NCBI RefSeq assembly: GCF_018063565.1
Contig: NZ_JAGPBB010000003.1
Span: 46,160 to 110,159 of the forward strand
Length of the DNA stretch: 64,000 nt
Source: Rhodoferax sp.
Lineage (GTDB): Bacteria > Pseudomonadota > Gammaproteobacteria > Burkholderiales > Burkholderiaceae_C
Direction: 5' to 3'
The notes below the pieces were generated by a model, which was not told where the DNA came from, made no database searches, and worked only from the letters and a program-made list of their open reading frames with translations. Below are positions 2,253 through 20,482 of this stretch, one piece after another; the stretch's first letter is position 1, and each line of letters begins with the position of its first letter. The position numbers and the translations under genes were made by a program.

Positions 2253-4682
2253 ATGCCCTGGCCCCATCACCCTCCGATGAACCGTTCGCAGTCGGCTGGG
2301 ATGACAGCGGCGCTGTGGGGTATTTTGCTGGGCAGTGCTGTCCAATTGCATCAGACGGCTTTGTGGTCGATTTGGATCTATGCGGCTTTCGCGGCATCAG
2401 CGCCTCTTTTGTTTGGTTTCAATGCTATTTACTTGAATAGCTTGGCGCACCACTCCGCGAGCCGTTGGTGTTGGCTGGCTGCGTTTGCCCTGTTGGCTTT
2501 TGCCACCACGGGCATGCGTGCCAGCCATTTCGAGAGCCGGACCCTGTCACCTGCCTTGGAGGGACTTGACCTGCGGTTGACCGGCACCGTGGCTGCGATG
2601 CCACAGGCGTTTGCGTTGGGTGAGCGCTTCAGATTTGCACCAGACAGCGCCATCAGGGCGGGCCAAGCCGTCACCTTGCCTGCCTTGATCGATTTGACCT
2701 GGTACGGTTCGCAGGCGCCTTCATCTGAGGAGTCTGGCGCGGGGGTGCTGGCAAGCCCGCGCCTGCCAGCGGCACCGCGGGCCGGTGAGCGATGGCAGTT
2801 CAGTGTGCGGCTCAAGGCGGTGCATGGCAGCGTCAACCCTTATGGTTTTGACTATGAGCTTTGGCAGTGGGAGCAAGGTGTGCAAGCCACTGGCTACGTG
2901 CGCAATGGTGCCAGCGACCCACTCCCTGTCCGGTTGGCGACCGGCGTTGGTTATCCGATGGCGCGCTGGCGTGAACAGGTGCGCCAGCGCATCATGGAAC
3001 GGTTGCCCGATCCGCAAAGCAGTGGTTTGATAGCGGCCTTGGTGGTAGGCGACCAGCGCGCCATCGATCGTGATGACTGGCTTGTGTTTCGTGCGACCGG
3101 GGTGGCTCACCTGGTCAGCATTTCAGGTTTGCACATCACCATGTTTGCCTGGCTGGCAGCACGTGTGGTGGGTTGGCTGTGGCGACGCTCAAGCTGGCTC
3201 TGCCTGCGCTTGCCGGCTGTGCACGCCGCGCTGCTGGGTGGCGTCGGGCTGGCCCTGTTCTATGCCCTGTTCAGTGGTTTTGGTGTGCCGGCACAGCGCA
3301 CCATTTTGATGCTGGCCTGCGTGGGTCTGTTGCGGCTCAGTGGGACGCGCTGGCCATGGCCTTCAGTTTGGCTGCTGGCGTGTGCTGCCGTGGTGGTGCT
3401 TGATCCGTGGGCGATGCTGCAAGCAGGTTTCTGGCTCAGTTTTGTCGCAGTTGGCATCCTGTTCGCTACTGATTACGAAGCTTTGAAACGTCATGAAAAT
3501 TGGGCTGGAGGTCATTTTTATACTTTTTTTATGGAGCAGTGGGTGATCACGCTGGCACTCACACCGTTGTCGCTGCTGTTGTTCGGGCAGGTGTCTTTGG
3601 TGGGTATACCCGCCAATGCTTTGGCCATCCCTTGGATCACACTGCTGGTGACGCCGGCCGCAATGCTGGGTGTGCTGCTGCCTGGCTTGTGGGAAATGAC
3701 GGCCATCGCCGTGTCTTGGATGATGCTGGTGCTGGCATGGTTGGCGGGTCTGCCATGGGCGGTGTGGTCGGTGGCACAAGCACCGCTGTGGGCTGCTGTG
3801 GTGGCATTGCTCGGTGGTTTTGTGATGGCCATGCGCTTGCCCTGGTCGCTGCGCGTGTTGGGTTTGCCCATGGTGTTGCCAGTGGTGTGGTGGCAGATGC
3901 CGGTGCCGGCATGGGGTGAATTCGATGTGTTGGCGGCAGACGTGGGGCAGGGCAGTGCCGTGTTGGTACGAACATCCGGGCACGCATTGATGTTTGATGC
4001 CGGACCGCGATACGGTGAGGGCAGCGATGCGGGCCAGCGGGTGCTGGCACCCATGCTGCGCGCGTTGGGTGTGCAACTCGATACGCTGCTCCTCAGCCAT
4101 CGCGACAGCGACCATGTGGGTGGCGCGCCAGCTGTACTCGCCATGCAATCCGGTACCACGTTGTTGAGCTCATTTGCCGATGCCGCAGAGTCCGGAGTTT
4201 TGTGCCGGGCAGGCCAGCATTGGCGTTGGGACGGTGTCGACTTTCGGGTGCTTCATCCGCCTCCCGAGATGCTCCAGCCGCAGCGCAATACCAACGCCGC
4301 GAGTTGTGTGCTGCATGTTTCAAATGGGGAGTCTGCGGCCTTGCTGACAGGCGATATTGAAGTAGCGCAGGAGGCTGGCCTGGCAGCCACCAACCTTGTC
4401 AAGGCCGATCTGCTGGTGGTTCCCCATCATGGCAGCAAGACATCGAGCAGTGCGCAGTTTCTGGATGCGGTCAGTCCGCGCGTGGCAGTTGTGCAGGCAG
4501 GGTATCGCAATCGCTTCGGGCATCCTGATCCGCTGGTGCTGGCCCGTTACCGTGAGCGGGGTATTTTGGTGCTCGATACGCCTCATTGCGGTGCGGTGAT
4601 GTGGCGCTCTGGGTCCGACCCCTTATCGACCTGTCAGCGTCAGCAGTCACCCCGGTACTGGCACCACCGTGTCCCGAATTAG
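2253..4682 (+). CDS. comEC: DNA internalization competence protein ComEC/Rec2
   Basis: Inner-membrane channel protein that passes single-stranded DNA into the cytoplasm during natural transformation. The 809 residues show the family order. An N-terminal membrane and DUF4131 region comes first (LLGSAVQLHQTALW, LTGTVAAMPQ). The polytopic Competence core follows (LVVGDQRAIDRDDW, GVAHLVSISGLHITM). A C-terminal metallo-beta-lactamase-like domain carries DVGQGSAVLV, the metal-binding SHRDSDHVGG, LLTGDIE and VVPHHGSKTSSS. Length is typical of proteobacterial ComEC. Around residues 404-427 an AT-rich stretch matching a dispersed repeat encodes an atypical segment (DYEALKRHENWAGGHFY). The start at 2253 is the first reasonable ATG; 2301 is an in-frame alternative. 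It is transcribed away from the chemoreceptor gene. Confidence 0.95.
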   Translation: MPWPHHPPMNRSQSAGMTAALWGILLGSAVQLHQTALWSIWIYAAFAASAPLLFGFNAIYLNSLAHHSASRWCWLAAFALLAFATTGMRASHFESRTLSPALEGLDLRLTGTVAAMPQAFALGERFRFAPDSAIRAGQAVTLPALIDLTWYGSQAPSSEESGAGVLASPRLPAAPRAGERWQFSVRLKAVHGSVNPYGFDYELWQWEQGVQATGYVRNGASDPLPVRLATGVGYPMARWREQVRQRIMERLPDPQSSGLIAALVVGDQRAIDRDDWLVFRATGVAHLVSISGLHITMFAWLAARVVGWLWRRSSWLCLRLPAVHAALLGGVGLALFYALFSGFGVPAQRTILMLACVGLLRLSGTRWPWPSVWLLACAAVVVLDPWAMLQAGFWLSFVAVGILFATDYEALKRHENWAGGHFYTFFMEQWVITLALTPLSLLLFGQVSLVGIPANALAIPWITLLVTPAAMLGVLLPGLWEMTAIAVSWMMLVLAWLAGLPWAVWSVAQAPLWAAVVALLGGFVMAMRLPWSLRVLGLPMVLPVVWWQMPVPAWGEFDVLAADVGQGSAVLVRTSGHALMFDAGPRYGEGSDAGQRVLAPMLRALGVQLDTLLLSHRDSDHVGGAPAVLAMQSGTTLLSSFADAAESGVLCRAGQHWRWDGVDFRVLHPPPEMLQPQRNTNAASCVLHVSNGESAALLTGDIEVAQEAGLAATNLVKADLLVVPHHGSKTSSSAQFLDAVSPRVAVVQAGYRNRFGHPDPLVLARYRERGILVLDTPHCGAVMWRSGSDPLSTCQRQQSPRYWHHRVPN
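3463..3530 (+). repeat. Dispersed AT-rich repeat copy inside comEC
   Basis: An AT-rich stretch in otherwise GC-rich comEC. It has the left part CGCTACTGATTACGAAGC and a right end GGGCTGGAGGTCATTTTTA, resembling the GCGCTAGAGGCC end of copies at 34268, 37482, 44472, 51699 and 58003. It keeps the comEC frame open and adds a polar segment between membrane helices. Assignment is by eye. Confidence 0.5.
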
Positions 4683-4740
4683 GGCATTGTTGATTGGCCT
4701 TGTGCTGGTAGTCCCTGCTAAGCGACAAACAGCCACGCCA

Positions 4741-4795
4741 TGCACCCACACGGTGCGACGACTCTCATGCCTTTTCGTTGCACCAAGTCGGTGCC
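4741..4795 (+). promoter_or_regulatory. Two tandem NtrC-type enhancer sites
   Basis: TGCACC-CACAC-GGTGCG at 4741-4757 and TGCACC-AAGTC-GGTGCC at 4779-4795 each match the NtrC consensus TGCACC-N5-GGTGCA at 11 of 12 arm positions. They are spaced 38 bases apart on the same face-like phasing seen at NtrC enhancers. Both lie between comEC and the ATP-grasp gene. Binding by NtrC is inference from the motif. Confidence 0.65.
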
Positions 4796-4826
4796 TCCGG
4801 ATGGCGCCAATGTGCGACGCGATCTG

Positions 4827-4842
4827 TGGCCATCGCGTTGCT
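4827..4842 (+). promoter_or_regulatory. Candidate sigma-54 promoter (TGGC-N7-TTGCT)
   Basis: TGGCCATCGCGTTGCT has the TGGC (-24) and TTGC (-12) blocks at the correct spacing for RpoN. It would start transcription near 4853, placing the two NtrC-type sites at about -66 and -104. The leader would be about 235 bases. The middle ACGR block does not match, so this is one of two candidates. Confidence 0.5.
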
Positions 4843-5046
4843 TGGGTCGCGTCGTGCGTCCCATCCGGTGGCAGGAGGCGCGCGAAGAAAATAGCGTACC
4901 AGCCCATTCGACTGGACGGATGCGCGTTTTCAGTCTGGTCCAAGGTTGGCCGCAGATCGGGCTGATCCAGGGTGGTCCATGCCGGATTGGGCGAAACACC
5001 CATTGTCATGAATTGTTGTCAAAGCCCGCATTAATGTTGTCGGGAT

Positions 5047-5062
5047 AGGCCTGAAACTTGCT
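5047..5062 (+). promoter_or_regulatory. Second candidate sigma-54 promoter next to the ATP-grasp start
   Basis: AGGCCTGAAACTTGCT matches the RpoN consensus in GGC, the GR pair and TTGCT with correct spacing. It would initiate near 5073, leaving only about 15 leader bases before the ATG at 5088 with AGGAGAA at the very 5' end. The NtrC-type sites would then sit about 280-330 bases upstream. It is an alternative to the site at 4827. Confidence 0.4.
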
Positions 5063-5087
5063 AAGCTTGGTGCAGGAGAAACGATTC

Positions 5088-6602
5088 ATGCAGAAATTTG
5101 ACGAGATGTACACCCGCCTGCCCTATGAGTTCTTCAGCAAGGGTGCGCAAATTCGCGATCATTACAAAATCTATGATGCGTGGTTGGCCCGACAGCCTGG
5201 CGACATGATGGCCAAACGACGCGAAGAAGCCGAGATGATCTTTCGGCGGGTGGGCATCACCTTTGCGGTTTATGGCGAAAAGGACGAAGAGGGTGCCGGA
5301 ACCGAGCGGCTGATTCCGTTTGATCTGATCCCGCGCATCATTCCAGCGCACGAATGGACCAGCATGGCGCGTGGACTGGAGCAGCGGGTGACGGCGCTGA
5401 ACCGCTTTATTTTTGACATCTACCATGAGCAGGAGATCATTCAGGCGGGCATCGTGCCGCGTGAACAGATCGAAAACAACGCGCAGTTCCGTCCCGAGAT
5501 GGTGGGGGTGGCAATTCCCAATCAGACCTACTCGAATATTTCAGGGATTGACATCGTGCGGGCACCCAATGCCGCTGGTGAGGGAGAGTATTACGTGCTG
5601 GAGGACAACCTGCGCGTGCCCAGCGGCGTGAGTTACATGCTGGAAGACCGCAAGATGATGATGCGGCTGTTTCCAGACCTGTTTTCGGCCCATCGGGTCG
5701 CGCCCATCGCCCATTACCCCGACTTGCTGCTGGAGACTTTGCGGGCCAGCAGCCCGGCCACCACCGCCGAACCGACGGTGGTGGTGCTGACACCCGGAAT
5801 GTACAACAGCGCCTATTTCGAGCATGCCTTTTTGGCGCAGCAAATGGGCGTGGAACTGGTGGAAGGCCAGGATTTGATGGTCAAGGACAACTTTGTCTAC
5901 ATGCGAACAACCCGCGGGCCGAAACGGGTGGACGTGATTTACCGGCGCGTGGATGACGATTTTCTCGACCCGACGGTGTTTCGACCCACTTCGACATTGG
6001 GTTGTGCCGGCCTGATGGACGCGTATCGGGCGGGTAATGTCACCATCAGCAACGCGGTTGGCACCGGCATTGCCGACGACAAGTCCATTTATCCCTATGT
6101 GCCGCAGATGATTGAGTTTTACCTTGGTGAGAAACCGATTCTCAACAATGTCCCCACCTTCATGTGCCGCAAGAAAGACGATTTGGCCTACACGCTGGCC
6201 AACCTGAAGGATCTGGTTGTCAAAGAGGTGCATGGTGCGGGGGGGTATGGCATGTTGGTTGGCCCCGCTGCCACAGCGGCCGAGATTGAAGATTTCCGCA
6301 AGGCACTGCTGGCCAATCCCAGCGGCTACATTGCGCAGCCGACCCTGAGTTTGTCAAGCTGTCCGACCTTTGTCGAAAGTGGTATTGCGCCACGCCATAT
6401 TGACCTGCGGCCTTATGTGTTGTCGGCCAAAACGGTGCAAATGGTGCCCGGAGGGCTGACCCGGGTCGCGCTCAAGGACGGCTCGCTGGTGGTCAACTCC
6501 TCACAGGGCGGTGGCACCAAAGATACCTGGATTCTCGAAGACGATGCCGCGCCAACTGAAGCTGCTGTACCGGCGCGCCAGGCGCAGCAGCAGTCCAGTT
6601 GA
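5088..6602 (+). CDS. Circularly permuted ATP-grasp family protein (DUF404/DUF407 type)
   Basis: 504-residue member of the circularly permuted ATP-grasp type 2 family, predicted to ligate a carboxylate to an amine using ATP; the substrate is unknown. Typical stretches are YEFFSKGAQIRDHYKIYDAW near the N-terminus, IPFDLIPRIIPAHEW, the ATP-grasp core (YYVLEDNLRVPSGVSYM, PYVPQMIEFYLGEKPIL, LVVKEVHGAGGYGMLVGP) and a C-terminal RPYVLSAKTVQMVPGGLTRV. The ATG at 5088 is chosen because AGGAGAA precedes it by 8 bases and family members begin near this point. It is followed immediately by an alpha-E gene, the usual partner. The upstream region carries NtrC and sigma-54-like elements, so nitrogen control is likely (inference). 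Confidence 0.9.
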   Translation: MQKFDEMYTRLPYEFFSKGAQIRDHYKIYDAWLARQPGDMMAKRREEAEMIFRRVGITFAVYGEKDEEGAGTERLIPFDLIPRIIPAHEWTSMARGLEQRVTALNRFIFDIYHEQEIIQAGIVPREQIENNAQFRPEMVGVAIPNQTYSNISGIDIVRAPNAAGEGEYYVLEDNLRVPSGVSYMLEDRKMMMRLFPDLFSAHRVAPIAHYPDLLLETLRASSPATTAEPTVVVLTPGMYNSAYFEHAFLAQQMGVELVEGQDLMVKDNFVYMRTTRGPKRVDVIYRRVDDDFLDPTVFRPTSTLGCAGLMDAYRAGNVTISNAVGTGIADDKSIYPYVPQMIEFYLGEKPILNNVPTFMCRKKDDLAYTLANLKDLVVKEVHGAGGYGMLVGPAATAAEIEDFRKALLANPSGYIAQPTLSLSSCPTFVESGIAPRHIDLRPYVLSAKTVQMVPGGLTRVALKDGSLVVNSSQGGGTKDTWILEDDAAPTEAAVPARQAQQQSS

Positions 6603-6646: not shown

Positions 6647-7606
6647 ATGTTGTCAAGAACCGCCGATCACCTTTTCTGGATGAACCGTTACACCGAGCGT
6701 GCCGAAAATACGGCCCGACTGCTCGATGTCAACTACCAGACCTCGCTTTTGCCACAGTCGGAGGCGGTGGCGCTTGCTGGCTGGCAGGGTCTGCTTTCCA
6801 TCAGCGAACTGTTGCTCAGTTACCGGGACAAACACGGTGACATCCGTGCCAAGGAGGTGATGGACTTCATGGTGAAGGACGAAAGCAATCCATCGTCCAT
6901 CCTGTCGTGTCTGGGTGCTGCCCGAGAAAATGCCCGAGCCGTGCGGGGCACGCTGACCACCGAAGTCTGGGAAACGCAGAACCAGACCTGGCTGGAGGTC
7001 AAGCGCATGATCAAAAACGGTGAGTTTGAGCAGGATCCCGCGCAGTTTTTTGAGTGGGTCAAGTTTCGCTCGCATCTGTCGCGCGGGGTAACCGTGGGCA
7101 CCATGTTGATGGATGAGGCCTTGCATTTCATGCGTTTGGGCACCTTTCTGGAGCGGGCAGACAACACCGCACGGCTGGTGGATGTCAAGTTCCACGCTGT
7201 TGAGAGTGACTTTTATGGCACGGCCAACGAAAAAGATCAGGAGTATGACTTTTACCACTGGAGCGCCATCTTGCGCAGCGTCAGTGGGTTTGAGGTGTAT
7301 CGCAAGGTTTATCGCGACGTGATTCGCCCGGAGCGGGTGGCTGAACTGCTGATATTGCGTTCAGACATGCCACGCAGCCTGCATGCCAGCCTCAATGAGG
7401 TGGTGAGCAACCTGCGCATGGTGGCCAATGACCAGTCGGTTGAGACCCACCGCCGGGCCGGCAAACTGCGTGCCGAATTGCAATACGGACGCATTGACGA
7501 GATTCTGGCGACCGGTTTGCACGCCTATCTGACCCAGTTTCTGGACCGGATCAATGACCTGGGTGCCTGTATCAGTCGGGACTTTCTGGTGCCCATGCCT
7601 GGCTGA
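6647..7606 (+). CDS. Alpha-E domain-containing protein (DUF403)
   Basis: 319-residue all-helical alpha-E protein, the standard partner of circularly permuted ATP-grasp proteins in predicted peptide-forming systems; its activity is unknown. The start MLSRTADHLFWMNRYTERAE is the characteristic family N-terminus, which decides for ATG 6647. An upstream TTG at 6599 overlapping the ATP-grasp stop would add 16 residues unlike the family. Other family stretches are LSRGVTVGTMLMDEALHF, LERADNTARLVDVKFH and SWRAVL-like YHWSAILRSVSGFE. It is co-directional with and 44 bases from the ATP-grasp gene, so they are probably one transcript. The transglutaminase gene often found third in such operons is not here. 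Confidence 0.9.
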   Translation: MLSRTADHLFWMNRYTERAENTARLLDVNYQTSLLPQSEAVALAGWQGLLSISELLLSYRDKHGDIRAKEVMDFMVKDESNPSSILSCLGAARENARAVRGTLTTEVWETQNQTWLEVKRMIKNGEFEQDPAQFFEWVKFRSHLSRGVTVGTMLMDEALHFMRLGTFLERADNTARLVDVKFHAVESDFYGTANEKDQEYDFYHWSAILRSVSGFEVYRKVYRDVIRPERVAELLILRSDMPRSLHASLNEVVSNLRMVANDQSVETHRRAGKLRAELQYGRIDEILATGLHAYLTQFLDRINDLGACISRDFLVPMPG

Positions 7607-7755: not shown

Positions 7756-8625
7756 ATGAAAACCCAACAGATCAATCGCGAGCTTGACGCCGCTCGCGAT
7801 TCCGGGCCGGTCAGGGACATTGTGATTCCACCCTGTCCGCAGCTGCTTGCGCAACTTCAGGTGGAATTGAATCAGGCCGACCCCGACCCTTTGGTGGTCG
7901 CCGCGATCGCCGGCAGTGATGTGGCGATGGCCGCGGCACTGATTCGGATTGGCAACAGCTCACTTTATGCGCGCCGCGAGCCGGTCAGTTCGGTCGGGCA
8001 GGCGGTTTCGATGTTGGGTGTGCGGCCAACCGCTGCGGTGTTGACCGGATTTTTGCTGCGCAATGCGATTGCGCTCGATCCTACCCTGATTGAGCACTTT
8101 TGGGAGTCGTCCAACCGCCGGTCGTTGGCGATGGCGCATATTGCGGCCCAGATGTATGGCGTGGACGTTGAGGTGGCCAGGACTTGTGGCCTGTTTCTGC
8201 ATGTGGGCATACCCGTCATGTTGCAAGGGGTCAAAGGTTATCGTGGCACGCTGGCTGAAGCCATGGCGCGGCAGGACCGTACCTTTACCCAGACTGAGAA
8301 CGCAGCCCATCGAACCGATCACGCGGTGGTTGGTGCGATCGTCGCCAGAACCTGGCGTTTGCCAGCGGTTGTTGGCCACGCGGTTCGCTTGCATCACGAT
8401 TTCGCCGTCCTGTCTGACACCACATTCGAACTGCCGGTGCGTCAACTGGTCGCCGTCGCCGCCATTGCCGACCACCTTGTGTCGCGCCATGAAGGTGTCG
8501 CAGATCAGCGCGAATGGCGCCATTTTGGTGCTGATTGCATGTCGTTTTTGCAAATTGATGCGGCTGAGGTCGAGTCCTGGAGCGACGTGTTGTACTCGGC
8601 GTTCGAACGCGTGGTGGTGTCCTGA
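7756..8625 (+). CDS. HDOD domain protein
   Basis: 289 residues with an HDOD domain, a degenerate HD-like helical signalling module found in bacterial regulatory proteins, starting near residue 20 (IPPCPQLLAQLQVELNQ). Typical features are SDVAMAAALIRIGNSSLYA, VSSVGQAVSMLGVRPTAAVLTG and WESSNRRSLAMAHIAAQMYGVDVEVARTCGLFLHVG. No attached GGDEF, EAL or receiver domain is seen. ATG 7756 is preferred because GAAAGAGA precedes it; the reading frame upstream (from 7606) lacks family character. It lies 149 bases downstream of the alpha-E gene on the same strand, so co-transcription is possible but not shown. Its partner and signal are unknown. Confidence 0.85.
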   Translation: MKTQQINRELDAARDSGPVRDIVIPPCPQLLAQLQVELNQADPDPLVVAAIAGSDVAMAAALIRIGNSSLYARREPVSSVGQAVSMLGVRPTAAVLTGFLLRNAIALDPTLIEHFWESSNRRSLAMAHIAAQMYGVDVEVARTCGLFLHVGIPVMLQGVKGYRGTLAEAMARQDRTFTQTENAAHRTDHAVVGAIVARTWRLPAVVGHAVRLHHDFAVLSDTTFELPVRQLVAVAAIADHLVSRHEGVADQREWRHFGADCMSFLQIDAAEVESWSDVLYSAFERVVVS

Positions 8626-16529: not shown

Positions 16530-18548
16530 TCAGCGAAACCGCTGAAAATCGCGACGGAGTGTAGCGAGCTGCTGCCGGTAACCGCCGATCGGGGGCGTCG
16601 GGTGCTTCGCGTAACGCAGGGTCTCCAGGCGTAGCAGCCAGTCTCCAAATGCTTGCCGCTCAGACTCAGGCATTGACACCAGAAGGTTCAACGAAGCGAT
16701 CAGTTGTCGCGGTGTGCTTTGGGCGGGCAGGCACACGCCATTTTTCAACAAGCATTGGCGCGCCTGTGTCAGCAGGCGCAACCATGGGTCTCGGCGCTGT
16801 TGTTGCCAGGCCGCCCACGTCGCGCCCACGACACTGGCACCGACCAGGATGGCGCACAGAAGGTAAATCAGGTCTTCCCAGCCAGGTGCCCGCAGTCCCA
16901 GATGCTTGAGCAAATTCAGTTGACTGGACTGAGTGTAGTTGAGTACCCATTGGTTCCAGCCGTTGTTCAGTGCCTCCCAGGTGGCACGCAGTGTCGCCAT
17001 CAATTGCGGGCTGACATTGCCCAACAGAGCGTTGGCCAGAATGCCGCGCGTCGCTGTCAGTCGGGTGAAGCTGCCGGTGCGTGCCGGTGCCACCGCACCG
17101 GTTGGGTCGACCCGAACCCAGCCCTGACCGCTGAGCCAGACTTCGGCCCAGGCATGGGCGTCGCTTTGGCGAACTGTCCAGAAATTGTCGACCGGGTTGA
17201 GTGCACCGCCCTGGTAACCGGTGACGATGCGCGCAGGCACGCCGGCGGCGCGCATCAGCAACACAAAGGCGGACGCAATGTGTTCGCAAAACCCGGCTTT
17301 ACGGTCAAACCAGAATTCGTCGGCGCTATCGCGGCCATAAATGCCAGGCTCCAACGTGTAGGCATAGCTGCCCGAACGCAACCGCGCCAGTGCCTGTTCC
17401 ACCAGATGTGACCCCAACCCGGGTCCGGCGGGCGCCTGCTGCAGCAGTTCATTGGCCAGCGCCTGAGTGCGTGGGTTGTAGCCGTCTGGCAGCGCCAGGT
17501 ACGGTGCCAGCAGCGGGCCGGCCTGACGCGGGCCGTGTGAGAACTGCGGGTAACTGGTGACCTGGTAGCGCAGCAGTTCGGTCACTCCATGAGGATGCAA
17601 CCACTGCAACTCGCTGGTCATGCGGGCTTGTCCCTGGGCCAAACGCGGTGCCTCGACTGCAGCGTCGAGCACCAGCAGCCAGGGCTGCTGGTTGGGTTCC
17701 AACGTGACTTCGTACCGTATGCCGGCTCCACTGACCTGCAGTCCGGCCCGCTCCGCTCCGAGCAGGGCCAGTATTTCAGCGTGTCGCCATCGACTTCCAT
17801 CAAAATGCGACAGCACCGGGCCACGGAAATACAGGCTGTCCTGTGGCGGTGGCTCACCCTCGAATCTCACGCGCATGGCCACACTGTCGTCCAGTGCCAG
17901 CGTGGCGATGGTGCCCACCGCCATCTGACCCGACAACCCACTGCGTCCGGTCATGGCGTCGCCAGGCATGCCCCATAGTGGGGAAAGTCGGGGAAACAGC
18001 AAGAACAGCAGTAGCATGATCGGCGCACCCAGCAACATCATGCCACCCGCCACCCGGGCCGATTGCAGCAGTGGTGGCCGCCCCAGCGGCATATGGGCGT
18101 TGACCAGTGCGGTCAGCAGCCCCAGCAAGGCCAGCAACATGGACGCCGCAGTCAACAGGGACTGTGAATAAAAGAAGTTGGTCAGCAGCAAAAAGAAGCT
18201 GAGGAAAAACACCACAAAGGCATCGCGGCGGGCACGCAGTTCCAGTGTTTTCAACGCCAGCAGCACCACCACCAGTGTGACCCCGGCGTCGCGGCCAAAC
18301 AGTGTTTTGTGACTGACCAGCGTCGCAGTGACCGCCAGCGCCAGCAACCCCAGTCGCCACCAGCCTGATGGCAGGGTTTGGCCGCGCCAGGCCAGCGTGG
18401 CACGCCACGTCATCACCAGCGCGGTCAGCGCCGACGCCCAGAGTGGCAAGGGATCCACCAGGGGCAGCAACACCCAGGCCATGACCAGCAGTAAAAACCA
18501 GGTGTCCCGGGTATCACGTGGCAGGTTCGACAGATCGGTGGTTTTCAT
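16530..18548 (-). CDS. TgpA-type membrane transglutaminase (DUF3488 plus transglutaminase-like)
   Basis: 672 residues. The N-terminal DUF3488 membrane region has about six helices (WFLLLVMAWVLLPLVDPLPLW and onward). A periplasmic transglutaminase-like domain follows, with Cys-His-Asp in RKAGFCEHIASAFVLLMRAAGVPARIVTGYQGG, SDAHAWAEVWL and GWVRVDPTGAV. A final helix (LIYLLCAILVGASVVGATW) and a DUF4129-like cytosolic tail end the protein. Related proteins (TgpA of Pseudomonas aeruginosa) have transglutaminase activity; the substrate here is unknown. ATG 18548 (MKTTDLSNLP) is preferred; the longer frame to 18635 overlaps the DUF58 gene. It is the third gene of the MoxR-DUF58-TgpA cluster. Confidence 0.9.
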   Translation of the reverse strand: MKTTDLSNLPRDTRDTWFLLLVMAWVLLPLVDPLPLWASALTALVMTWRATLAWRGQTLPSGWWRLGLLALAVTATLVSHKTLFGRDAGVTLVVVLLALKTLELRARRDAFVVFFLSFFLLLTNFFYSQSLLTAASMLLALLGLLTALVNAHMPLGRPPLLQSARVAGGMMLLGAPIMLLLFLLFPRLSPLWGMPGDAMTGRSGLSGQMAVGTIATLALDDSVAMRVRFEGEPPPQDSLYFRGPVLSHFDGSRWRHAEILALLGAERAGLQVSGAGIRYEVTLEPNQQPWLLVLDAAVEAPRLAQGQARMTSELQWLHPHGVTELLRYQVTSYPQFSHGPRQAGPLLAPYLALPDGYNPRTQALANELLQQAPAGPGLGSHLVEQALARLRSGSYAYTLEPGIYGRDSADEFWFDRKAGFCEHIASAFVLLMRAAGVPARIVTGYQGGALNPVDNFWTVRQSDAHAWAEVWLSGQGWVRVDPTGAVAPARTGSFTRLTATRGILANALLGNVSPQLMATLRATWEALNNGWNQWVLNYTQSSQLNLLKHLGLRAPGWEDLIYLLCAILVGASVVGATWAAWQQQRRDPWLRLLTQARQCLLKNGVCLPAQSTPRQLIASLNLLVSMPESERQAFGDWLLRLETLRYAKHPTPPIGGYRQQLATLRRDFQRFR

Positions 18549-18561
18549 CTCGGACCCGATC

Positions 18562-19581
18562 TCAGGCCAGTGCCAATGCGCGCAGGCAGCGTTGCAAGTG
18601 GGGAGCACCGCAGTCGGGCGCAATCTCTTGCGCACCGAGCTTCAGGCCGAATCGCCAGCCCTGCCGATCCGCCTGCAACACCCAGGCGCACAGGCGGCTG
18701 AGTTGTTGCTCCGGGTGACCCAGTCCGGTTTGGCTGCGCTCCAGCCACACGGCGCGTTGTTGCAGTTGCACCTGGTCTCGACTGATCAACTCCCCGGTTT
18801 TGGCAACTTTTTTCCACAGCAGGTACTTGAACGGGTCGCCACGCCGGTAGGCCCTGACACCGTCGGGCTCACCGGGTCGGGAAACCGCCTGTTGCGCTTG
18901 TGCGCCCGCTGCATTTGCAGGCAACATCGGCAGCGGTGGAGGCTTGGCCTCGGGTGTGGGGTAGACCAGTAGCTGCGCGGCCGGACGCCACAAGGCCCAG
19001 ACACGAAAGCTGCCCAGCGGAAACAGCGTTTGTGCGCTGAGCATGGGCAAGGGGTGCAAGCCGCGGCTCGAGGCGTGCCAGCCCAATTGCACATGCGCGG
19101 TACCCGTTGCCGTCACGTCGGTGAACACCCATTGCTGCGCCGCATGTACACACAGCGCGATGGCGGGTCTTGGCTGTCGGCGCGGGTTGTGCAGACTCAC
19201 GTCAATAATGGCCTTGGCGCCCATGAATACGGGCTCCGGTGCTATCAATGTCAAGGTAATTCCGCGCAGGTTGGCGTGGCTGACATGCATGGCAACGAGC
19301 GCACTGCCCCCCAGCAGAAAGGTCAGCAGGTAACCCAGATTGAGCTGGTAATTGATGGAGGCGATCAATAACACCAACAGGGTGACAGCAAGCATCCAGC
19401 CGGCACCCGTGGGCAAGATGTAGACATTGCGCTGGGTCAAGGTCAAACGGTCGGTCTGCGGCAAGCGGGCCTGCCACCATTGGGCCAAGGCGGCTCGTGC
19501 GGCGCGCATCAGGTGGTGAAACACGGACGGCGAAGCGGACGTTTTCAATGGGCTTGGCGCGTCAGGGAAGGGCAATGGCAT
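18562..19581 (-). CDS. DUF58 domain-containing membrane-anchored protein
   Basis: 339 residues. Two close N-terminal helices (VYILPTGAGWMLAVTLLVLLIASINYQ and LGYLLTFLLGGSALVAMHV) precede a soluble region with the DUF58 signature (GVRAYRRGDPFKYLLWKKVAKTGELISRD). DUF58 proteins are co-encoded with MoxR ATPases and are thought to be their clients; the biochemical role is unknown. The ATG at 19581 overlaps the MoxR gene by 20 bases, which suggests coupled translation. ATG 19509 is an alternative that starts closer to the first helix. The stop lies 13 bases before the transglutaminase start. Confidence 0.85.
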   Translation of the reverse strand: MPLPFPDAPSPLKTSASPSVFHHLMRAARAALAQWWQARLPQTDRLTLTQRNVYILPTGAGWMLAVTLLVLLIASINYQLNLGYLLTFLLGGSALVAMHVSHANLRGITLTLIAPEPVFMGAKAIIDVSLHNPRRQPRPAIALCVHAAQQWVFTDVTATGTAHVQLGWHASSRGLHPLPMLSAQTLFPLGSFRVWALWRPAAQLLVYPTPEAKPPPLPMLPANAAGAQAQQAVSRPGEPDGVRAYRRGDPFKYLLWKKVAKTGELISRDQVQLQQRAVWLERSQTGLGHPEQQLSRLCAWVLQADRQGWRFGLKLGAQEIAPDCGAPHLQRCLRALALA

Positions 19582-20482
19582 CCAGCATGGCACGCACCTG
19601 CTCGTGCGCGCCACGCCCGGCGTCACCGCTGGGGATCAGCCGGTGAGCAATGGTTTGAGGCAGGATCGCCCGTACGTCGTCGGGGGCCACATACGGGCGT
19701 CCGGCCAACAGTGCCCGCGCCTTGGCCGCCCGCAGCACCGCAATGCCGGCCCGCGGGCTCAGCCCCTGCACAAACCACTGTCCGGAGCGTGTCGCCGCCA
19801 TCAGGTCCTGCACATAGTCGAGCAAGGGTGCGCCTGCGTGGACCGCCTGGACCTGCTTTTGCAGGATCAGCAGTTCTTGCGCCGTCAATAGGCTGGGCAG
19901 GGCATCGACCAGTTCGCGCCGATCAACCCCCGCCAGCAGCGCCCGCTCGGCATCCCGGCTGGGGTAACCGAGCGAGATACACATCAGGAAGCGGTCAAGC
20001 TGTGATTCAGGCAGCGCGTAGGTGCCAATCTGATCCATCGGGTTTTGGGTGGCGATGACAAAAAACGGCACCGGCAGGGCGCGGGTCTGTCCTTCCACAC
20101 TGACCTGCTTTTCTTCCATCGCCTCCAGCAAAGCACTCTGGGTTTTCGGACTGGCACGGTTGATCTCGTCGGCCAGCAGCAGTTGGGCAAACAATGGCCC
20201 GGGATGGAAAACAAAACGGTCGCTGCCCCGTTCAAACACCGAAACCCCCAGCAAATCACTGGGCATCAGATCGGCAGTAAATTGCACGCGCGAAAACTGC
20301 AGGCCAAAGGTGCGTGCCAGGGCATGAGCGAGGGTGGTCTTGCCAACACCCGGTACATCTTCAATCAGAAGGTGGCCACCGGCCAGCAAGCAGGCGACAC
20401 AATCTTGTGTCTGGTCCGGTTTTCCGACAATCACCGTGTTAAGCTGATCGAGTAATGACTTGAGTTTTGCTTGAATGTCCAT
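19562..20482 (-). CDS. MoxR-family AAA ATPase
   Basis: 306-residue AAA+ ATPase of the MoxR group, acting as a chaperone-like factor for protein activation. Walker A is EDVPGVGKTTLAHALA, followed by RVQFTADLMPSDLLG, Walker B LLADEINRASPKTQSALLEAMEE and sensor region FFVIATQNPMDQIGTYALPESQLDRFL. The C-terminal lid has LSPRAGIAVLRAAKARALL and GRPYVAPDDV. It heads the minus-strand cluster with DUF58, TgpA and probably MltB. Its start is 42 bases from the divergent HDAC-family gene. Confidence 0.93.
   Translation of the reverse strand: MDIQAKLKSLLDQLNTVIVGKPDQTQDCVACLLAGGHLLIEDVPGVGKTTLAHALARTFGLQFSRVQFTADLMPSDLLGVSVFERGSDRFVFHPGPLFAQLLLADEINRASPKTQSALLEAMEEKQVSVEGQTRALPVPFFVIATQNPMDQIGTYALPESQLDRFLMCISLGYPSRDAERALLAGVDRRELVDALPSLLTAQELLILQKQVQAVHAGAPLLDYVQDLMAATRSGQWFVQGLSPRAGIAVLRAAKARALLAGRPYVAPDDVRAILPQTIAHRLIPSGDAGRGAHEQVRAMLDAIALP

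Follow-up and report, generated by a model that had tools for sequence, protein, structure and literature searches.

Predicted NtrC/sigma-54 control of a CP-ATP-grasp/alpha-E gene pair in a Rhodoferax genome

A stretch of 64,000 nucleotides from a Rhodoferax sp. genome (hereafter the window) carries, in the 405-bp gap between the end of comEC at 4682 and the ATG of a circularly permuted ATP-grasp (CP-ATP-grasp) gene at 5088, what is most probably a control region of the NtrC/sigma-54 type, by which this gene and its alpha-E neighbour are turned on at nitrogen shortage. We put the probability of this reading at about 0.84. Under nitrogen shortage, phosphorylated NtrC would bind the two neighbouring sites (4741 and 4779), and looping of the DNA from there would allow the sigma-54 promoter to be opened. 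The core promoter would be the conserved element at 5047, and the element at 4827 would perhaps serve as an extra lineage-specific start. NtrC binding and activation in the host organism, as well as the choice of promoter, are what we infer from the sequence. The pair itself may act as an amide or peptide bond-forming enzyme under nitrogen stress.

The control region and its sites

A sequence-only reading had reported two copies of TGCACC-N5-GGTGC with starts 38 bp apart (4741-4756 and 4779-4794), a TGGC-N7-TTGCT at 4827 and an AGGC-N7-TTGCT at 5047; all of them are indeed present (Table 1). We observed no other perfect TGCACC-N5-GGTGC in the 64-kb window. Base composition predicts 0.0004 perfect sites for a gap of 405 bp, and two would occur by chance with P ~7e-8. 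A matrix built on 25 NtrC sites taken from genomes other than this one (the further set described below) gave scores of 18.3 and 17.0 for the two window sites.

Taken alone, the -24/-12 patterns are weaker evidence than the NtrC pair. With at most one mismatch, the sigma-54 pattern was found 88 times in the window versus 64 expected; 1 of 100 shuffles gave as many as 88. When both window strands were ranked with a sigma-54 matrix, the element at 5047 came 9th and that at 4827 came 67th; the 5047 element is convincing because it is conserved in the orthologous upstream regions. From the usual distance, transcription from 5047 is expected to start at about 5073, and an AGGAG is found at 5074-5078, before the ATG at 5088.

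Table 1. Features of the control region and of the genes after it, in window coordinates.
Feature	Position	Strand	Evidence
Weak NtrC-like site CGCCTCATTGCGGTGCG in the comEC 3' end	4579..4595	+	NtrC matrix rank 11, score 11.0
NtrC-type site 1, TGCACC-CACAC-GGTGC	4741..4757	+	Perfect match; rank 2 in the window by NtrC matrix
NtrC-type site 2, TGCACC-AAGTC-GGTGC	4779..4795	+	Perfect match; rank 1 in the window by NtrC matrix
Long imperfect inverted repeat / stem-loop	4792..4873	.	Inverted repeats I1, I6, I7; RNA fold
Distal -24/-12 candidate TGGCCATCGCGTTGCT, TGGC-CATCGCG-TTGCT	4827..4842	+	Pattern match; doubtful
Proximal -24/-12 sigma-54 type promoter AGGCCTGAAACTTGCT, AGGC-CTGAAAC-TTGCT	5047..5062	+	Matrix, conservation
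Circularly permuted type-2 ATP-grasp protein	5088..6602	+	Pfam CP_ATPgrasp_2 3e-163; 3n6x_A E 1.1e-208
Alpha-E protein	6647..7606	+	Pfam Alpha-E 4.2e-98, scored on the listed ORF
HDOD-domain protein (start by eye)	7756..8625	+	Pfam HDOD 5.9e-37

The genes of the operon and a fused paralogue

The CP-ATP-grasp gene adjoins the alpha-E gene in the window. By sequence, a single solved structure, 3n6x, named a putative glutathionylspermidine synthase, is related to the ATP-grasp protein; for the alpha-E protein no related solved structure was found at E values up to 1. The alpha-E start was picked by eye at the methionine of MLSRTADHLFW, and the listed ORF starts with a TTG at 6599. The next gene, encoding an HDOD-domain protein, follows alpha-E after a gap of about 150 bp, and its membership of the operon is uncertain. 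Among the 65 relatives having at least 2 kb of sequence beyond alpha-E, 11 carry an HDOD gene less than 400 bp after it, as does one further relative having less than 2 kb.

The window operon contains neither a transglutaminase nor an Anbu gene. The genome encodes an Anbu-like proteasome-family protein on another contig (C116), away from the operon. This protein is 78% identical to one at locus L079, which in turn has a 49% match in Klebsiella, annotated as a proteasome-type protease; no NtrC/sigma-54 sites of the window kind were found before the C116 gene. By eye, the minus strand of the window at 16530-20482 seems to encode a MoxR ATPase, a DUF58 protein and a membrane protein with a transglutaminase domain.

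A fused CP-ATP-grasp/alpha-E paralogue lies, together with a transglutaminase, on another contig of the same genome (C161, locus L141). The 568 bp before it were searched for -24/-12 elements (up to one mismatch) and for NtrC sites (fewer than three mismatches), and neither was detected. The same contig also holds a DUF2126 putative amidoligase and, by eye, a GGDEF/EAL-like protein.

Nitrogen-control sites elsewhere in the host genome

The host genome measures 4.13 Mb and its nearest named relatives are Rhodoferax MAGs. Genome-wide, TGCACC-N5-GGTGC gives 17 strand matches, that is 14 distinct sites, versus 1 for the pattern written backwards as a control. One lies 256 bp upstream of the glnA ATG, with TGGCACAGAACCTGCA at -64; about 184 bp separate this NtrC site from the glnA promoter. 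Another is found upstream of glnK-amtB with TGGCACGAACTCTGCT, a promoter of the form TGGCACG-N4-CTGCT. These two promoters combine TGCACC-N5-GGTGC with a -24/-12 element, as the window operon does; they differ from it in that their -24 boxes read TGGCAC and that the genes they serve are those of ammonium assimilation.

A further perfect site (L012, 2501-2517) stands 73 bp before a gene for a GAF/HisKA_3 histidine kinase, accompanied by a response-regulator-like gene, and no good sigma-54 element was found between this site and the kinase gene. We also noted a perfect NtrC-type site (L007, 2502-2516) 49 bp upstream of the start of a membrane sensor-like gene; 500 bp of sequence there contained no good sigma-54 element.

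Both regulators are encoded by the host genome: ntrC on contig C153 (631 bits, above the cut-off) and rpoN on contig C46. We surveyed 51 genomes, the own genome and those of 50 of the 80 named loci, a choice weighted towards unusual promoters. Each of the two genes scored above the cut-off in 49 of the 51, and the genomes missing one of them may be incomplete MAGs. The survey offered no usable natural loss of rpoN that could have served as an experiment, rpoN being found in 49 of the 51.

Conservation before near orthologues

The comparison drew on 143 regions upstream of the orthologous gene (the window, 80 named loci, 29 more loci and 33 stretches), of which 120 differ from one another in their last 62 bases. 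Two divergent matches from the same genus, L157 and L158, did not enter the counts. In 103 of the 120 distinct regions a -24/-12 element, perfect in 82 and with one mismatch in 21, lies less than 80 bp from the start codon; shuffles gave rates of 0.03% for perfect elements and 1.3% when one mismatch was allowed. The other 17 regions have a weaker element or none (two mismatches in 15, three in one, four in one). The conserved element is the one found at 5047 in the window. In addition, although one mismatch was allowed, GG and GC at sigma-54 spacing are invariant in all 103 elements, with a T at the first place in 97 and a C at the fourth in 94.

We noticed that the proximal element reads (A/G)GGTA-N6-TTGCT, with GG and GC kept, at 15 loci in the range L057-L090, many of which bear the name Limnohabitans; the promoter may be weaker or changed in this form.

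The distal part of the control region behaves differently. Two perfect NtrC sites were observed in the window only, among the 143 upstream regions (134 of them with the full 700 bp), and the single other perfect site belongs to locus L079, where a one-mismatch site lies beside it. Likewise, a second perfect -24/-12 element 120-320 bp further up was found in only 1 of the 103 regions, that of the window.

Conservation before distant orthologues

The orthologue was matched in 81 of 150 genomes of the order Burkholderiales, the own genome included. A further set of 57 regions was made up of 53 of the 80 other matching genomes, picked to span families (4 belong to the own family), and of four named loci on plasmids, from Caballeronia, Sinorhizobium, Rhizobium and Klebsiella. 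With one mismatch allowed, 40 of them hold a -24/-12 element within 260 bp, versus 1.6% in shuffles, and these elements read TGGCA(C/T)(A/G)-N4-TTGC. In 25 of these 40 regions an NtrC site with at most 2 mismatches of 12 lies 30-200 bp upstream, whereas the farther stretch gave 1 of 40 and 100 dinucleotide shuffles gave a mean of 1.45 and a maximum of 4. The distances from NtrC site to promoter at orthologues fall between 49 and 139 bp in 30 of 33 cases, with clusters at 59-74 and 101-117 bp.

The remaining 17 of the 57 regions have no sigma-54 element by the one-mismatch rule; they include all four genomes of family f7 and both Rhizobiaceae loci. Before a Burkholderia cenocepacia plasmid homologue, which is unannotated in its record and may not be BCAM1233, no good site was found in 500 bp. 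NtrC/sigma-54 control of this kind is thus common across the order, without being universal at this position. The expectation that the sites of the window would recur before orthologues was therefore borne out in part: the exact NtrC pair is confined to the window among the 143 near regions, but equivalent sites are present farther away, in 25 of the 40.

Choice of promoter and alternative readings

The sequence-only reading had left two candidate promoters. That at 5047 stands, through its conservation in 103 of 120 regions; that at 4827 has lost ground, being found in 1 of 103 regions and lying within the stem-loop at 4792-4873, though the spacing of the NtrC sites suits it. Indeed, the centres of these sites are 40 and 78 bp from 4827, and 260 and 298 bp from the -24 box at 5047; a spacing of 78 bp is usual at orthologues, whereas 260 or 298 bp is unusual. 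Sequence and conservation favour 5047, and spacing favours 4827.

The NtrC pair could then drive 4827 as a compact lineage-specific module, 5047 being a relic or a second start. Besides the usual spacing of 78 bp, the shape of the gap speaks for this: it measures 405 bp in the window versus 152 bp in the nearest relative, L013, and the part that cannot be aligned to L013 holds both NtrC sites and 4827. However, 4827 ranks 67th by matrix, is located inside the stem-loop and has a counterpart in 0 of the 102 other regions, and the own genome retains the 5047 element. We consider this arrangement unlikely, though it is the strongest of the alternatives. We hold 5047 to be the main promoter, and 4827 may be an extra, lineage-specific start.

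The RNA fold of 4785-4885, which covers the stem-loop, has an energy of -54.2 kcal/mol (z -3.3). No Rfam family was matched in 4200-5300 at E values up to 1. A repeat origin of the gap was rejected, since 4683-5060 has no second copy in the own genome.

It can also be asked whether the proximal element is an extended -10 promoter of the sigma-70 type (TTGCTAAGCT) instead of a sigma-54 promoter. By eye, TTGCTA followed by variable bases recurs, with a start at nearly the same base, and the corresponding P. putida genes remain inducible in an rpoN mutant according to table 2 of PMC7801951. Nevertheless, GG and GC are kept at sigma-54 spacing in 103 of 103 near elements, and the further set reads TGGCA(C/T)(A/G)-N4-TTGC. 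Moreover, a sigma-70 scan of 4600-5150 returned no promoter, and the B. cenocepacia cluster appears among common sigma-54 and NtrC targets in the available text of PMC5491218. We regard the sigma-70 assignment as improbable. Finally, that the sites arose by chance or serve something else is hardly credible: both the NtrC and the sigma-54 pattern are common in the window once mismatches are allowed, but two perfect NtrC sites in 405 bp are not (P ~7e-8), and sites of both kinds are found again upstream of distant orthologues.

An NtrC-like dyad within the end of comEC

In near relatives, NtrC-like sites are found at another place. The weak site in the 3' end of the window comEC (Table 1) has in the relatives a common form, CGCCCCATTGTGGTGCA, which scores 18.0, between the two intergenic sites of the window. 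With a score threshold of 11, of our own choosing, a match 30-200 bp upstream of the -24 box was found in 56 of 97 near regions (6 of the 103 were too short and were dropped; the window counts as a miss), versus 6 of 97 in the farther stretch and 1% in shuffles. Many of these matches are CGCC(C/T)C-N5-GGTGC at the comEC codons for S-P-H-C-G-A. In L014-L056 these codons are strongly fixed as TCG CCC CAT TGT GGT, which forms the NtrC-like dyad. The choice runs counter to codon usage: the Gly codon at this motif is GGT in 51 of 73 comEC genes, although mean GGT usage is 0.22 (the count includes L013, in which the wrong motif was picked), and in 37 of 41 in the Rhodoferax group; after Cys elsewhere, GGT occurs in 5 of 46 cases. 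The distant orthologue L201 shows CGCCCCAAATTGGTGCA where its NtrC site lies.

It is possible, at somewhat less than even odds, that the operon has its NtrC enhancer, in the Rhodoferax group, within the coding end of comEC, whose codons would be held to keep CGCCCC-ATTGT-GGTGC, and that two perfect intergenic sites took the place of this enhancer later on in the lineage of the window. We present this as a lead and do not claim it, the control being not clean. Indeed, GGT is kept in 8 of 10 same-genus comEC genes with no operon found beside them, and in 2 of the 3 named loci where comEC is more than 1 kb from the operon (L023 and L025, not L080). As GGT is kept without an adjacent operon, the fixed comEC codons do not depend on this neighbour. 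The 10 control genes come from 18 loci: L174 and L175 have no motif, L176-L178 repeat genomes, and L170-L172 were left out because the operon is adjacent. By eye, two of the 10 (L163 and L165), whose genomes have no intact orthologue there, seem to carry CP-ATP-grasp or alpha-E remnants after comEC, which would fit a recent loss of the operon.

Comparison with known systems

Control of the pair by NtrC and sigma-54 at nitrogen starvation, as the sequence-only reading had proposed, is well supported by the calibration in the own genome, the conserved promoter, the distant NtrC sites and the B. cenocepacia data in the available text of PMC5491218. That the product stores, salvages or mobilises nitrogen, as the same reading suggested, is a conjecture. 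The control is real but mostly not new. Since control of such a cluster is published for B. cenocepacia, and induction for P. putida too, in the parts of these reports that treat the genes, the central inference is right in kind without being novel. The link being already published for two species, the gain is one of breadth and anatomy and not a new principle. Across many lineages of a single order the enzyme pair is now linked with nitrogen starvation, and the sequence signature tells which growth condition to use when seeking its product. It also sets the nitrogen-controlled pair apart from the fused paralogue of the own genome, which goes with a transglutaminase and lacks such sites.

In P. 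putida the CP-ATP-grasp gene of the run PP_2685-PP_2688 is induced by nitrogen limitation, as predicted for the window pair. Unlike the window run, the P. putida one also has PP_2686, a transglutaminase, and PP_2685, a proteasome subunit of the Anbu type. The relevant parts of PMC8050072 give for PP_2688 a log2 value of 3.99, nitrate versus ammonium, with a 3.7-fold induction of its promoter, and describe the own promoter of PP_2685 as unresponsive; induction of the P. putida genes under nitrogen limitation is likewise reported in the text available from PMC5666114. Table 2 of PMC7801951 shows PP_2686-2688 up 11-15-fold in the wild type, with PP_2685 barely moved (1.12), and still up 14-20-fold in an rpoN mutant (PP_2688 19.61 versus 14.66 in the wild type). 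As induction persists in the mutant, this data set lends no support to sigma-54 dependence there. In the same table urtA-D also stay induced in the mutant, so that either sigma-54 is not the only factor in this control in P. putida or the mutant is blind only in part; in the portion of the paper at hand, its authors assign PP_2686-2688 to NtrB/NtrC. We found no paper joining Anbu, nitrogen and NtrC, and the gene names are absent from PMC12316311 and PMC5748707.

The closest known system is the cluster I35_5080-5083 (BCAM1233-1236) of B. cenocepacia H111, which has the same families as the window (DUF404/407 corresponding to CP-ATP-grasp and DUF403 to alpha-E) and belongs to the same order. Judging from the available text of PMC5491218, this cluster includes two transglutaminase-like genes, whereas the window operon has none. 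It is listed there among common sigma-54 and NtrC targets, with values in an ntrC mutant of -8.2 for the DUF404/407 gene and -9.4 for the DUF403 gene. Dependence on NtrC and sigma-54, which we predict for the window, has thus been measured in B. cenocepacia, as far as that text goes.
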